Shown: positions 1 through 32,617 of the stretch, in pieces
How positions within the stretch are numbered: position 1 is the stretch's first letter
Layout of the letters: each line of letters starts with the position of its first letter
Assembly: GCA_021807675.1 (NCBI GenBank)
Contig: JAKBCR010000014.1
Span: 1-38,931, forward strand
DNA length: 38,931 nt
Direction: 5' to 3'
DNA from: Pseudomonadota bacterium
GTDB taxonomy: Bacteria; Pseudomonadota; Gammaproteobacteria; Steroidobacterales; Steroidobacteraceae
Position numbers and translations under genes: made by a program
Notes under the pieces: generated by a model
What the model was told of the DNA's origin: nothing
The model's database searches: none
The model's input: the letters and a program-made list of their open reading frames with translations, nothing else

Positions 1-91
1 CCCCGCCGCCGCAGGTGGCGGACGTTGAGGCAAAAAACCGCGCTTTTTGCCTCAACGGCGCTGGGCCGGCCAGGAGGGCCGGATCCAGCGC
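1..91. repeat. Structured repeat copy R1 (left-truncated by the window edge)
   Basis: First of three copies of a multi-hairpin element; it abuts the ligA stop codon. Hairpin H0 pairs 6-10 with 17-21 (CCGCC/GGCGG, loop GCAGGT). H1 pairs 25-36 with 44-55 (TTGAGGCAAAAA / TTTTTGCCTCAA, loop ACCGCGC). H2 pairs 58-64 with 85-91 and 66-71 with 77-82. The same sequence recurs at 6932-7016 with a compensating swap in H2. The A and T runs lie inside the H1 stem, so this is not a textbook terminator, although its position after ligA would suit a 3'-end structure. The fourth hairpin of the full element (H-1) would lie just outside the window. Confidence 0.85.
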
Positions 92-100
92 TTATTCATA

Positions 101-2176
101 CTAGCCGCGATCGTTGACGAGATCGAGGAACGCTCCCTCGTCGAGCACCCGAACGCCGAGCTCCTCCGCCTTCTTGAGCTTGGAGCCGGCTTCCGCGCCG
201 GCAACGACCATGCTCGTCTTTTTCGAGACGCTGCCGCTTACCGAGGCGCCCAGACGCTCGGCCATCGCCTTGGCCTCATCGCGGGTCATTCGCTCCAGGC
301 GGCCGGTGAACACGATGGTCTTGCCGGAAATCGGGGACTTTGTCGCCGGGCGCTCGGCCTCGAGGATCCGGACCTCCCGGGCGAGCCGGTCGACCATGCC
401 GGCGTTGTGGGGCTCGGAGAAGTAGGCCGTCAGGCTCTCGATGACCGCATCCCCGATCTGGTCCATGGCATCGAGCTCCTGGCGCGCCTCCGCCTCTCCC
501 TGGGCGAGGCGCCGACAGGCTTCGCGGAAGGCGTGGAAGGCGCCGTAACCGCGGGCCAGGGAGCGGGCCGTGGTCTCGCCCACGTGCCGGATGCCCAGTG
601 AGTAGATGAAGCGCTCGAGAGGGACGGTGCGGCGTGCCTCGATGGCGGCGAAGAGGTTGCGGACGGAGAGCTCGCCGAAGCCTTCGTGCCGGGAGAGTTG
701 AATCGTGTCGTCGCGGCGGGGCAGCGTGAAGATGTCGGCGGGCTCGGCGATCCAGCCTCGCTCGAAGAAGAGATTGATCCGCTCCTCGCCGAGGCCTTCG
801 ATATCGAAGGCGCGGCGGGAGACGAAATGGCGCAAGTGCTCGACCCGCTGGTACGGACAGGCGAGCTCGCCGGAGCAGCGGGAGATGGCCCCCTCCTTGC
901 CCGTCGCGGTCAGGTCGCGGACCACCGGGGTCGAAAGGGGGCAGGGACAGGTCTTCGGGAACTGGAAGGGATGGCTGTGCGGCGGTCGTCGCTCCGGCAC
1001 CACGCCGAGAACCTGCGGGATCACATCCCCGGCGCGCTGCACGGTCACCGTATCTCCGATCCTGACGTCGAGCTCGCGGATGTAGTCTTCGTTGTGCAGC
1101 GTTGCATTCGAGACTACGACGCCACCCACGTTGACGGGAGCCAGCTTGGCGACGGGCGTGAGTGCTCCGGTCCTCCCGACCTGCAGCTCGATCGCATTCA
1201 GGAGGGTAGTGGCTTTCTGGGCCGGAAATTTGTGGGCGAGCGCCCAGCGGGGATCGCGGCCGACGAAGCCGAGGCGCCGCTGCCAGTCGAGGCGGTTCAC
1301 CTTGTAGACGACACCGTCGATGTCGTAATCGAGCGTGGCGCGCTCCAGCTCGATCTCACGATGGAACGCGAGCAGCTCATCGAGGGAGCAGCAGAGGCGG
1401 CTCAACGGGTTGCCGGGAAAGCCGCGCGCCTGCAACCAGCGCAGCATGTCCCACTGGGTCGCGGCGGGCAGTTCGCTCATCTCGCCCCAGGCGTAGGCCA
1501 GGAATCGCAGCGGGCGCGAGGCGGTGACCTCGGGATCGAGCTGGCGCAGCGAGCCGGCCGCGGAATTGCGCGGGTTGGCGAAGACGGTGCGGCCGGCGCT
1601 CGATTGCTCCTCGTTGAGCTTGAGGAAGGCCGAGCGTGTCATGTAAACCTCGCCGCGGATCTCGCAGACCTGCGGCGCTCCGTGACCGTGCATTCTCGCC
1701 GGGATGTCCTCCACGCGGCGCACGTTGGCGGTGACATCCTCCCCTTCCGTACCGTCGCCGCGCGTCGCGCCGCGGACCAACACCCCGCGCTCGTAGCGCA
1801 GCGACAGCGAGAGACCGTCGATCTTAGGCTCCGCCGTGAGCTCGATCGGCTCTGCGGCGTCGAGCTTCAGGAAGCGTCGTACGCGGTCGATGAAGGCGGC
1901 GACGTCCTCGGTGCTGAACCCGTTCGCCAGCGACAGCATCGGCACGCGGTGGCGCACCTTGGGGAACTTGCCCGACGGTGCGCCGCCCACACGCTGGGTG
2001 GGCGAGTCGGGCGTGATGAGCTGCGGCTGCGCTCGCTCGAGCTCGCGCAGCTCGCCCATGAGCGCGTCGTAATCGGCGTCGGAGATCTCCGGCCGGTCGA
2101 GCTCGTAGTACAGCCGGTTGTGATGTGCGATCTGCGAGCGCAGCTTCGCCGCGCGCGCCGCCGCGTCATGTTTCAT
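101..2176 (-). CDS. ligA: NAD-dependent DNA ligase LigA
   Basis: Seals nicks in duplex DNA during replication and repair, using NAD+ for AMP transfer to the active-site lysine. At 691 aa it has normal family length. Visible in order: N-terminal Ia domain with [15 protein letters not shown], adenylation motif [10 protein letters not shown] and zinc-finger region, helix-hairpin-helix region, and a C-terminal BRCT domain beginning near [11 protein letters not shown]. The zinc finger is slightly unusual: its first pair reads CPC (one residue between cysteines) instead of CxxC, and the segment before the second pair (RCSGELAC) is longer than in E. coli. I chose ATG 2176, which overlaps the zipA stop by 11 bp. 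An in-frame ATG at 2194 would add six Arg/Pro-rich residues. It is the last gene of smc-zipA-ligA. Confidence 0.96.
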
Positions 2177-30796: not shown

Positions 30797-32344
30797 CTAG
30801 GGCGGCAGGAACCGACCGAAGAAGCCGCGGGCCGCCGCCATGCAGAATGGAGCGACAGCGGTGTGATACTGCTCGAGCGCCGCCTGCGCGCCGACCTGCG
30901 CAACAGTTTGCGCGGCCGCCTGCCGGAACGCCTCCTGCACGCCGGCGTAAGGATCGCCGGCCGCCGGGGCCGCATTGACATCGAGGACCGACACGAGCCC
31001 CGTGGACACCTGCGCCTGCCAATAGGCTTCCATCGTCCCGGTGTTCACCCCGAAGAACACCACCGGATCCTGATCGCCTCCGCAAAGCAGCATCGGCATT
31101 CGCGGCGTCCAGCTTCGCATGTCGTTCACCTTCAGATCCTGGCGCAGCGCATTCTGCGGGGAGGCGGCGAGCGGCACACCGGATGCCGGCGGACTCAAGT
31201 CCGCGCCGTCGGGATCGGCCGCGACGTCCTCCACGTAGCTCACGCGGTAGCTGTTGCTGATGAGGAACGGGTTGCCGAAGCCCGCCGAATACACCGGATT
31301 CGGGGGACTCGGCAGGGCGAGCAGCGCATCCACCGCCGCAATGCCGGTGGTCGGGGGCGTGCTGCTGAAGAGCGCCGACTGCGGCAGCTTGCCCTCCTGG
31401 ATGAGCGTGGCGAGCGGTGTCGCGCTCGGCAGGAGCGAGTCGATCCCGGCCGCATATTGCGGTGAATAGACATCGGTCGTCGCCGAATAGACATTTCCAT
31501 AGGCTCTCTGGTAACTCGTCGTCGTGAGCACCGCAAATTCGGGCGCATCGAAGTTCACATGGCCCGTCATGATGGCATCGCCGAAAGCTTCCGCGGCGTA
31601 AGGTCCGGACATCGGCGCGGTCGCGGTGACTGTCTCCCCCGCAGCCTGCATGGCCTTGTCGGTGGCCATCGCCACGAAGCCGCCGATCGAATATCCGGTG
31701 ACGAAAAGCTCACCTCCGTCCGTGGTGGACGGTGTGAAGGTGCTGAGCAGCGCGGTACGTGCCGCGGTCAGAGCGTCCATCATCTCATCCGCGTTCTGCT
31801 GCGCGTTGAGGAACGGGTAGTAGCCGAGGGTGGAGATGTCGTAGCCCGCGAAATTCGGCGCGACGACGATGTAGCCTTGCGCAGCGTACATCACGGCAAG
31901 CTCCAACCCCTCCACCTGCGTCGGATCGAGCACATCCGCGATGTTGTAGGTCGCATCCACCGTCGTGGCATGCGCGTAAAGCATGATCGGGCGGCCGCCC
32001 GAGCACTGAGCGGCCGAGCCGGTCGGCACCATCAGCGCCCCCGAGTCCATGATCGGCATGCTCGAGCCCGGCGCCGTCGGCGCGACGGTCCAGTATTTGA
32101 GGTAGTAGACATCGACGCCACAAGCCGGAGGTCCCGCGAGAGCGAGGAGCTGCTGCCCCGTCGAGCTCGCGTTCAACTGGGCCACGATGGCGGATGCGTC
32201 GAGTGACACGAGGCGCGCCGGTGGGTCCTCGACGAGCGTGCCGTGAGCGTTGGTAGTCGCCACCCTGGCGGTCGGGCTGTCGTGGCCGCAGCCAGCGAGA
32301 CCCAGGGCGGCAACCGTCGCCCAGAGCACGCCAATCTTGCGCAA
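30797..32344 (-). CDS. Lipoprotein alpha/beta hydrolase, secretory lipase-like
   Basis: Predicted exported esterase or lipase of 515 aa. A lipoprotein signal is clear (IGVLWATVAALGLAGCGHD, lipobox LAGC), so it should be membrane-anchored. The hydrolase fold is shown by RPIMLYAHATTV, YIVVAPNFAGYD and the nucleophile elbow VTGYSIGGFVAM; an acid residue probably lies in LLCGGDQDPVV. The start is TTG 32344 with a GGAGGGGG site upstream. Plant-cell-wall and fungal secretory lipases share this general look, but the substrate is not determined. It is the first gene of a two-gene unit with the OmpW-like porin. Confidence 0.85.
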   Translation of the reverse strand: MRKIGVLWATVAALGLAGCGHDSPTARVATTNAHGTLVEDPPARLVSLDASAIVAQLNASSTGQQLLALAGPPACGVDVYYLKYWTVAPTAPGSSMPIMDSGALMVPTGSAAQCSGGRPIMLYAHATTVDATYNIADVLDPTQVEGLELAVMYAAQGYIVVAPNFAGYDISTLGYYPFLNAQQNADEMMDALTAARTALLSTFTPSTTDGGELFVTGYSIGGFVAMATDKAMQAAGETVTATAPMSGPYAAEAFGDAIMTGHVNFDAPEFAVLTTTSYQRAYGNVYSATTDVYSPQYAAGIDSLLPSATPLATLIQEGKLPQSALFSSTPPTTGIAAVDALLALPSPPNPVYSAGFGNPFLISNSYRVSYVEDVAADPDGADLSPPASGVPLAASPQNALRQDLKVNDMRSWTPRMPMLLCGGDQDPVVFFGVNTGTMEAYWQAQVSTGLVSVLDVNAAPAAGDPYAGVQEAFRQAAAQTVAQVGAQAALEQYHTAVAPFCMAAARGFFGRFLPP

Positions 32345-32510
32345 AATGCCCCCTCCCCAGGTCCCTGCGGCCGCGGTTACACCCGCAGCCTAGTGGCAGG
32401 TCCCTGTGCTGTGGCCGAAAGCATACACTCTCTATTGCCGCGAGCCATGCGATTGCCACGACCACGGGCGTGGCGATCAGCGTGCGTGTAGAGCCCACCG
32501 GGGAGCGTCA

Positions 32511-32617
32511 GCCGCTCGGCAAAGCTCTTGAGCTCGTGCCGCGGCGCGCCTCGAGCAAAAAGCGCGGTTTTTTGCTCGAGGCTCCGCCACCTGCGGCGGC
32601 AGGGCACCTCCTGTGCC
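32511..32617. repeat. Structured repeat copy R3 (opposite orientation, diverged stems)
   Basis: Reverse-complement copy of the R1/R2 element in the 287-bp gap between the hydrolase and FAD oxidoreductase genes. H-1 is 32603-32617 (GGCAC/GTGCC), H0 32584-32599 (CCGCC/GGCGG, loop ACCTGC, the exact complement of the R1/R2 loop), H1 32549-32581 (13-bp stem CCTCGAGCAAAAA/TTTTTGCTCGAGG, loop identical to R1/R2). The H1 base pairs differ from R1/R2 on both sides while pairing is kept. In the H2 position (32511-32545) there is a hairpin with unrelated sequence. It follows the stop of the oxidoreductase gene. Confidence 0.8.

Follow-up and report, generated by a model that had tools for sequence, protein, structure and literature searches.

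The three hairpin clusters R1, R2 and R3 in the window (that is, the whole stretch of DNA analysed, 38,931 nt) are copies of a mobile, non-coding chromosomal repeat, which is REP-like but longer. They probably represent a non-autonomous DNA repeat, mobile and some 170 nt long, a single strand of which could fold into five hairpins, and which would be mobilised in trans and corrected between copies. Based on a covariance model of 61 copies from 12 genomes of the genus (61 alignment rows picked from 70 non-redundant copies, with nine indel-rich or tandem-partner copies omitted), all three were recovered, and at least 140 copies were found in the source genome (matches with E ≤ 0.001; 150 scored of 7219 candidates). 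Therefore, the dispersed hairpin repeat proposed in the first-pass annotation, which was to be abandoned if a genome search returned no further copies, is retained. It should be noted that a set of 147 copies contains tandem, orthologous and weak ones, which are not independent.

The family is present in 30 of the 58 genomes of the source genus (Steroidobacteraceae), and in a sample of the class it was found in 19 of 274 genomes, representing 15 of 222 genera (the source genus and 14 others). The copy-rich genomes include G032 (97% complete), with at least 63 copies, and G035 (73% complete), with at least 62. No Rfam 15 family matched in the window; the sub-threshold matches of R2 were to two families of microRNAs and to RsmV, the latter over a stretch of 29 nt (E 0.05). 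The family was not found described in the literature searched, which consisted of open papers. Carriage by plasmids or phages was considered and dropped, since plasmid records gave zero matches to three family members and phage records zero matches to one.

The full unit of about 170 nt comprises the hairpins H0 to H4, with a core of 115 positions, and its features in the three copies are listed in Table 1. R1 and R2 are 99% identical over 76 nt, while R2 and R3, inverted relative to each other, are 88% identical over 57 nt. The fold energy of each copy lies below those of all 200 shuffled sequences, with z-scores of −7.5 (RNA) and −8.3 (DNA) for R1, −5.3 for R2 and −4.2 for R3. In the predicted fold of R2 the H0 stretch, which was placed by reading, pairs differently, and in that of R3 the A5/T5 hairpin is kept but H1 and H2 are not. 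Four hairpins had been assigned to all copies at first; the cluster is real, but the left hairpin H0 and the full length of the unit had been missed. R3 had been listed with the same hairpin order as the other copies; it does show the A5/T5 hairpin in its fold, whereas its right-hand hairpin is lost or replaced. The C-G to G-C swap reported between H2 of R1 and R2 is present, but it divides two multi-copy types rather than marking a change within one pair. The neighbouring genes had been named correctly (ligA, zipA, smc, queF and an FAD/NAD-binding oxidoreductase).

Table 1. Positions of R1, R2 and R3, their parts and adjacent genes in the window.
Feature	Positions	Strand	Remarks
R1	1-104	+	Left side cut by contig end; covariance-model score 95.9 bits (match 1-101)
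R1 H2	3-21	+	
R1 H3	23-57	+	
R1 H4	58-91	+	Followed by tail to CTAG
R1 right-end CTAG	101-104	+	
ligA stop codon	101-103	-	Falls inside the right-end CTAG of R1
smc start	6818	-	Neighbour of R2
R2	6876-7026	+	smc/queF gap; covariance-model score 130.7 bits (match 6911-7026)
R2 left tetramer CTAA	6876-6879	+	
R2 H0	6885-6897	+	By reading
R2 H1	6913-6928	+	
R2 H1 apical loop AGGGAG	6918-6923	+	GGA motif at 6920-6922
R2 H2	6929-6947	+	
R2 H3	6949-6983	+	
R2 H4	6984-7016	+	
R2 H4 apical loop GGA	6999-7001	+	
R2 right tetramer ATAG	7022-7025	+	
queF start	7037	+	Neighbour of R2
R3	32526-32619	-	Directly past oxidoreductase stop codon; covariance-model score 69.6 bits; H0 absent
R3 H3	32548-32582	-	
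R3 H1	32603-32617	-	By reading
R3 H4		-	Other sequence
Oxidoreductase gene	32632-33633	-	Beside R3

The stems of the family vary, while pairing and loops are retained. Paired cells make up 93.8% of 2305, compared with 85.3% after shuffling and 36-49% after sliding, and double changes occur at 22 of 38 pairs. Covariation beyond background, the lack of which was to count against the element, is thus found, with shuffles and slides used in place of R-scape. An irregularity of a terminal hairpin is also conserved, namely a G.U pair in 59 and a bulged A in 60 of the 61 copies. In a strand-bias test on the 61-copy alignment, from which this near-invariant G.U pair was excluded, 30 G.U and 38 A.C cells were counted, and the G.U:A.C counts in four model-fitted alignments were 11:5, 36:21, 55:56 and 11:3; any wobble bias is therefore at most weak. 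At the queF site, three orthologous copies, each paired at 9/9, differ by four to six double changes and at most one single-sided change per comparison, a pattern that gene conversion or template switching would explain no less well than selection acting stepwise. For H3, 12 comparisons at orthologous sites gave 43 pairs unchanged, 40 with double changes, 4 with single changes and 21 broken in one copy; here the sites s2, s4, s6, s7 and s9 are affected by register or decay, and we relied on queF, s3 and s8. Paired stems do vary, as had been claimed, but the conclusion that such compensation means selection on structure is insecure, given the lack of a clear wobble strand bias and the replacement of several stem bases at once. 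Caution is therefore advised, as compensation in high-copy hairpins may reflect copy correction rather than selection. Among 24 copies read, the terminal parts vary by host group and H1 and H3 are constant. In addition, three-hairpin modules inserted in the loop of H4 or H1 carry extra ANGGA loops.

The copies are mobile, since orthologous sites are empty in relatives. Between smc and queF, the element is present in G000, G032, G035 and G068, and the site is empty in G062, where the flanks are 91-93% identical; 4 of the 30 smc-queF loci listed are occupied. At a second locus, compared by reading, G080 and G068 have no element, and G062, G032 and G035 have truncated copies in opposite orientation. 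The position relative to genes is polar: the right-side gene converges on the element at 97 of 129 copies, compared with 65 of 129 on the left, and in 58 of the 97 converging genes the stop codon falls between -12 and +5 nt relative to the right end of the core. Of 20 left ends that could be used, 9 also adjoin a stop codon, so that the polarity amounts to a preference and is not absolute. In combining high copy number with ends that overlap stop codons, the family resembles REP-type sequences. The location past stop codons and the very stable hairpins would also suit bidirectional terminators, which had been offered among the first options, or stabilisers of mRNA ends, in either case kept by host selection. 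Such a role is highly improbable, because a hairpin followed by a T run, as in an intrinsic terminator, is absent at R1, R2 and R3, R2 stands before queF, and the family is sporadic within the genus, with empty sites in relatives.

The ends of the element are marked by tetramers. At a fixed offset, NTAR was found at 43 of 105 right ends and 31 of 57 left ends, and CTAG is the most frequent form (CTAG 20, ATAG 7 and GTAG 6 among the 105 right tetramers). At the queF site the tetramers are CTAA and ATAG, and the empty site reads CTAGTGTAG; in tandem units, one tetramer is common to neighbouring units. Among 42 copies that could be scored, the two tetramers are equal in 14 (some of them tandem; mostly CTAG) and unequal in 28, counts from which a duplication or a single target cannot be concluded. 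This bears on the possibility that the element is a MITE belonging to a DDE (cut-and-paste) transposon, such as one of an IS5-like family, ending in terminal inverted repeats and flanked by YTAR duplications of 4 bp. The IS5 family has YTAR targets and a GGAAGG... end, and in several other genera the ends of our element read as inverted repeats (GGAAnCTCTGA...TCAGAGnTTCC) beside TTAA-like tetramers; in Woeseiaceae they are CTAGCAGGCTGTTGAAAAA...TTTTTCAACACACTGCTAG. However, inverted repeats were not seen, by reading, at the ends in the source genus, and unequal tetramers outnumber the equal ones that a MITE would explain. Moreover, a duplicating insertion predicts no orientation bias towards stop codons, contrary to the converging right-side genes, and no transposase-bearing version was seen. 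We regard a MITE as rather unlikely.

Another candidate mover is RAYT (TnpA-REP, the Y1 tyrosine transposase), as part of a REP/BIME system. The high copy number and the tetramer near the foot of the terminal hairpin, with its conserved mismatch and bulge, agree with it: E. coli TnpA-REP is described as requiring GTAG and a bulge (in part of PMC8266576), and the GTAG termini of REPs as often supplying the TAG stop codon (in part of PMC3733652). However, our unit is several times the REP length of 20-40 bp given in the latter source, and Y1_Tnp (PF01797) has no match in G032 and G035 despite their many copies. The Y1 match in the source genome is split into two pieces with a stop, and none of 13 Y1 stretches contains a copy at E ≤ 0.01. 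In a survey of 41 genomes of the genus, which omitted G068, G072, G078 and G080, 11 have a PF01797 match, and those of the copy-rich G000 and G062 are only partial. RAYT was rejected as the mover, since Y1_Tnp is uncoupled from the copies in the 41 genomes and without a match in two copy-rich ones, and a RAYT-driven system is very unlikely. Of the options in the first-pass annotation, the REP/BIME-like mobile DNA element is supported, by the high copy number, the empty sites and the polar position at gene ends.

For the trans-mobilised, copy-corrected repeat that we favour, the following mechanism may be proposed. A trans-acting recombinase would recognise the terminal hairpins, each end being composed of the tetramer, 6-7 nt and a hairpin. 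Insertion with a preferred polarity beside NTAR would frequently hit stop codons, and insertions that spoil genes would be purged. Gene conversion among the copies, or template switching from one arm to the other, may in part keep the stems perfect, and the parts read by protein would be the loops, that is, GGA in H1 and H4 and CCRCGC in H3. With less confidence, the + strand might be transcribed, and its paired GGA hairpins could then bind CsrA/RsmA. A longer autonomous version was also sought. A left-end query gave 41 matches (40 of 92 candidates), 30 of which were retrieved and 12 read, one of them cut by a contig end; these 12 stretches were ordinary units, variants or truncated forms, and a longer element carrying genes was not seen among them.

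The GGA motifs in the loops of H1 and H4 suggest binding of CsrA/RsmA, as a prediction from sequence. CsrA sites are described as GGA-loop hairpins that are generally paired, and TwoAYGGAY as predicted to bind CsrA (both in part of PMC4333381); paired GGA-loop hairpins occur in this family too. Among copies across the class (alignment A2), GGA lies in the loop of H1 in 18 of 20 and of H4 in 20 of 20; in A5 it does so in 12 of 12 for H1, where the search pattern required it, and in 10 of 12 for H4. Within the genus, decayed and misaligned copies included, the counts are 49/61 for H1 and 45/61 for H4 in A3, and 69/89 and 65/89 in A4. Then, could the family be an RNA element first, in which two GGA hairpins (H1 and H4), and up to two more in the modules, bind the CsrA/RsmA dimer, acting by genome-wide titration or on host transcripts? 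The GGA loops are retained across genera despite stem change, the inserted modules add ANGGA loops, and TwoAYGGAY is likewise dispersed in some genomes. In addition, csrA matches were found in 55 of 58 genomes of the genus, with four in the source genome, one of them within the window, and they average 2.75 in eight genomes with at least 30 copies versus 1.57 in the 28 genomes without the element (p 0.0014, with no correction for kinship). However, over all 58 genomes the copy number does not correlate with the csrA number (rho 0.19, p 0.14), and the three genomes of the genus without a csrA match all carry copies (G077, 97% complete, 12; G025, 71%, 2; G017, 78%, 2). Where the element has its preferred orientation, transcription of the converging gene uses the opposite strand, on which GGA reads TCC, and the wobble bias is weak or absent. 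The model rewards GGA, so that its frequency is partly ascertainment, and the CCRCGC loop, for which we know of no CsrA meaning, is conserved as well. Because the GGA loops are conserved, an RNA role keeps some probability, but an element that is RNA first seems doubtful.

A still more speculative idea, to which we give little weight, is a class-wide mobile passenger module, whose core, with persistent H1 and H3 loops, would repeatedly gain terminal hairpins that differ between hosts and would scatter GGA-loop RNA hairpins binding CsrA/RsmA at gene ends. Such a selfish repeat might rewire or buffer a global post-transcriptional regulator, and TwoAYGGAY would be a second, unrelated case. Should the GGA loops indeed bind CsrA, a global regulator could acquire or shed targets through mobile repeats. 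Apart from this, the results describe a repeat family that spans many genomes and has no Rfam 15 match, reaches more than 100 copies in one genome, is mobile and prefers stop codons, and they turn the search for a recombinase that recognises hairpins into a concrete task.

Families of stem-loop repeats have been surveyed in 40 genomes (PMC2267715, in part), and several known systems may be compared with ours. Like a MITE, the element is short, non-coding and dispersed, with inverted-repeat-like ends in some hosts; unlike a MITE, it showed no inverted repeats on reading in the source genus, and it has an orientation bias towards stop codons and conserved internal hairpin loops. With GTAG REPs and BIMEs it shares many extragenic copies, a hairpin with an irregular stem, a tetramer at its foot and the overlap with stop codons. 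It differs from them in its five hairpins and much greater length, in a tetramer whose commonest form is CTAG, in the lack of a RAYT match in two copy-rich genomes and in loops conserved across genera. The CsrA-sequestering sRNAs of the CsrB/RsmZ type also have several GGA-loop hairpins, but at one or few loci, as against more than 100 dispersed copies here, which are known from sequence only; the CsrA-binding sRNAs of Alteromonas are described at a single locus in part of PMC5864184. TwoAYGGAY (RF01731, in clan CL00106 with RsmV), which is treated in parts of PMC2864571 and PMC11701678, has no match in the window, none for R2 at E ≤ 1 and none in the source genome (14 of 220 candidates scored). 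Its architecture is different, and the A5/T5 CCRCGC hairpin is absent from the alignment seen; yet, like our family, it has hairpins with GGA in the loop, and it too is dispersed in certain gammaproteobacteria, with inverted pairs among its copies.

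The three look-alike hairpin clusters of the window, R1, R2 and R3, are genuine according to both sequence matches and folding against shuffles, and they belong to a larger family than the first-pass annotation had noted. R1 and R2 are 99% identical over 76 nt, R2 and R3 form an inverted match (88% over 57 nt), and each of the three folds better than 200 of 200 shuffles. The ~170-nt unit carries five hairpins, H0 to H4, between 4-nt ends (tetramers), with H0 placed by eye, outside the scoring. R1 is incomplete, since the contig end cuts the copy; R3 lacks H0 and has other sequence in place of H4. 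The neighbouring ligA, queF and oxidoreductase genes, as named in the earlier annotation, agree with the gene coordinates. Tandem copies have one tetramer in common and are spaced 171 nt apart on contig C61, and an insert of 40 nt occurs in the H2 loop of some copies. A three-hairpin module is present in the H4 apical loop at six loci (L014, L020, L022, L026, L028 and L309), and a homologous module in the H1 apical loop at three (L019, L027 and L300); both add further ANGGA loops, and the module is possibly a nested element targeting AGGA/AGGGA loops.

Features in the window and parts of the repeat unit, left to right
Feature	Position or composition	Strand	Remark
R1	1-104	+
R2	6876-7026	+
R3	32526-32619	-
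ligA	101-2194
zipA	2166-3299		between ligA and smc
smc	3306-6818
queF-leader motif (right part)	7013-7036		TAGTGTAGAGTAAAT-like
queF	7037-7438
csrA	19653-19853	minus	PF02599, 72.5 bits
FAD/NAD-binding oxidoreductase	32632-33633
Left end	left tetramer, then ~7 nt, then H0	+	of R1/R2
Linker	between H0 and H1, with ATGAAGCGG	+
H1	GGCAC-AGGGA-GTGCC	+
H2	CCGCC-GCCGCAGGT-GGCGG	+
H3	variable outer stem, A5-6, loop CCRCGC, T5	+
H4	GCGCTGG-G-CCGGGC-AGGA-GCCCGG-A-TCCAGCGC	+
Right end	tail TTCATA, then right tetramer CTAG	+

With R2 as query, BLAST gave 70 matches in the same genome, palindrome self-matches counted in. Of 70 non-redundant copies collected, 61, from 12 genomes of the genus, went into a covariance model with 115 positions and 38 pairs. 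The search for further copies proposed in the earlier annotation yielded 140 matches in the same genome at E<=0.001, which is a lower bound because 7219 candidates passed the first look and 150 were scored. Contigs C390, C140, C125, C19, C403, C101 and others start or stop inside or within ~20 nt of a copy; the repeat is therefore a probable cause of assembly breaks, and the real number of copies is probably higher. At least 30 of 58 genomes of the genus match the model (best 64 candidates per genome), none of 23 genomes from other genera of the same order was matched by BLAST, and the class sample gave 19 of 274 genomes, the present one included, in 15 of 222 genera (scores for 13 candidates in each genome). 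Among named genomes, a scan with an exact pattern found at least 110 stretches, and 12 of the 58 given to the model match at E<=0.0001; their hosts are Peristeroidobacter, Marinobacter, Woeseiaceae, Pseudohongiella and other gammaproteobacterial MAGs, together with two records labelled Nitrospirae and Actinobacteria. The copies in Solimonas and Aliiglaciecola are based on the pattern match and reading of the sequence.

The smc-queF site is occupied in four of the 30 listed loci, that is, in the present genome and in G032, G035 and G068, and is empty in G062, where it reads AATACTAGTGTAGAGTAAAT; the anchors are 248-283 nt apart in occupied loci versus 80-207 nt in the others. Most of the 26 listed loci that lack the element (L320-L345) have a TAGTGTAGAGTAAAT-like motif in the queF leader; the R2 insertion falls within this motif, and the right part alone remains beside R2. 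A second site is empty in G080 and G068; G062, G032 and G035 have, by reading, truncated copies in opposite orientation there, and the G032 copy begins at the other gene's stop codon.

Polarity was examined for 147 distinct placed copies from the fetched loci, a subset of all copies; genes were called with a codon-usage score for which the window served as training sequence. A right-hand gene converging on the element is found beside 97 of the 129 copies for which a gene was called (two-sided p 8e-9, kinship ignored); the left-hand gene heads towards it in 65 of 129. Among the 97 converging genes, 58 have the stop codon -12 to +5 nt from the core end, apparently contributed in some copies by the end of the element itself; left ends adjoin stop codons in 9 of 20 usable cases. 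NTAR tetramers, most commonly CTAG, occur at 43 of 105 right ends and 31 of 57 left ends (fixed offset). A preference for NTAR with a preferred polarity, together with loss of gene-damaging insertions, would produce this picture. The tetramers are the same at both ends in 14 of 42 copies, tandem ones among them, and target-site duplication at insertion is possible.

As for the mover, the REP-type tyrosine transposase Y1 (RAYT, PF01797) is matched in 11 of 41 genomes of the genus. G032 (97% complete) and G035 (73%) have no Y1 match despite at least 63 and 62 copies, respectively, and the single match in the present genome is split into two pieces with a stop. Within 13 Y1 stretches no copy was found at E<=0.01 (three weak matches, E 0.025-0.13), no larger, gene-carrying version occurred among the 12 left-end loci read, and plasmid and phage records gave no match (three members searched against plasmids, one against phages). 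In several other genera the element ends resemble inverted repeats. The ends vary among host groups and H1 and H3 persist; the ends may have been swapped onto a common core or may merely have diverged.

Compensatory stem changes had been taken to mean selection on structure. The changes themselves hold: in the 61-copy alignment 93.8% of cells are paired versus 85.3% when shuffled and 36-49% with slid partners, and 22 of 38 pairs changed on both sides versus 11.4 shuffled. Copies from other genera, as low as 38% G+C, have the same hairpins with different stems, which establishes that the architecture is conserved. However, the step to selection calls for caution. RNA under selection is expected to tolerate G.U more than A.C. 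The G.U pair of H4 is near-invariant (59/61), and so is the adjoining bulged A (60/61), an argument that something beyond perfect pairing is kept; with that G.U pair set aside, there are 30 G.U versus 38 A.C among 2244 cells. The G.U:A.C ratios in the model-fitted alignments are 11:5 (A2, 20 class copies), 36:21 and 55:56 (A3 and A4, 61 and 89 genus copies) and 11:3 (A5, 12 pattern-derived copies), and the bias is weak or absent. At the queF site, the G032 and G035 copies are orthologous to R2 (flanks 86-95% identical), and the nine outer H3 pairs, all paired in each copy, show 6, 4 and 5 double changes and 1, 0 and 1 single-sided ones in the three comparisons. R2 is near-identical to other copies within its own genome. 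These multi-pair differences would be explained if gene conversion replaced the stems in blocks, or if the template switched from one arm to the other, and template switching is described as able to create and maintain RNA hairpins (PMC8794818). Structural selection on the stems is possible.

Transcribed copies might instead, or in addition to being mobile repeats, act as putative binding RNA for the post-transcriptional regulator CsrA/RsmA, a live reading judging from the loops. GGA is found in the loop of H1 in 18 and of H4 in 20 of the 20 class copies, versus 1 for H2 and none for H3, a frequency that is partly ascertainment because the model rewards GGA; A5 is no test for H1, because the scan pattern demanded GGA there. 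H1 resembles the CsrA SELEX consensus, RUACARGGAUGU. Paired GGA-loop hairpins are described as typical of CsrA sites (PMC4333381). csrA is matched in 55 of 58 genomes of the genus, four times in the present one. The mean is 2.75 matches in the 8 genomes with at least 30 copies and 1.57 in the 28 that lack the element (p 0.0014, without regard to kinship). However, copy number and csrA number are uncorrelated over the 58 genomes (rho 0.19, p 0.14), the three genomes with no csrA match, G077 (97% complete), G025 (71%) and G017 (78%), have 12, 2 and 2 copies, and in the preferred orientation the transcript of the converging gene holds the other strand.

Identity with the Rfam family TwoAYGGAY (RF01731) was rejected, as no match was found in the window, in R2 (E<=1) or among the best 14 of 220 candidates of the genome. 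TwoAYGGAY is itself dispersed: at least 12 genomes out of 185 from the class have it, including three with at least 14 matches each (14 of 14 scored candidates), and some copies are inverted pairs within ~300 nt, which is not what a cis-regulatory RNA label suggests. Solimonas aquatica has copies at L184:193-260 (minus) and 408-475 (plus), and G105, G166, G238 and G089 are also multi-copy.

On balance, we moderately favour a REP-like mobile multi-hairpin repeat. It departs from RAYT-moved REPs in two defining features, namely Y1 in copy-rich genomes and a 20-40 bp GTAG-footed unit; as regards MITEs, the ends are inverted-repeat-like in several other genera but not, by reading, in the present one, and the tetramer agreement is the partial one described. 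In its manner of working, the repeat is similar to a REP or a MITE.
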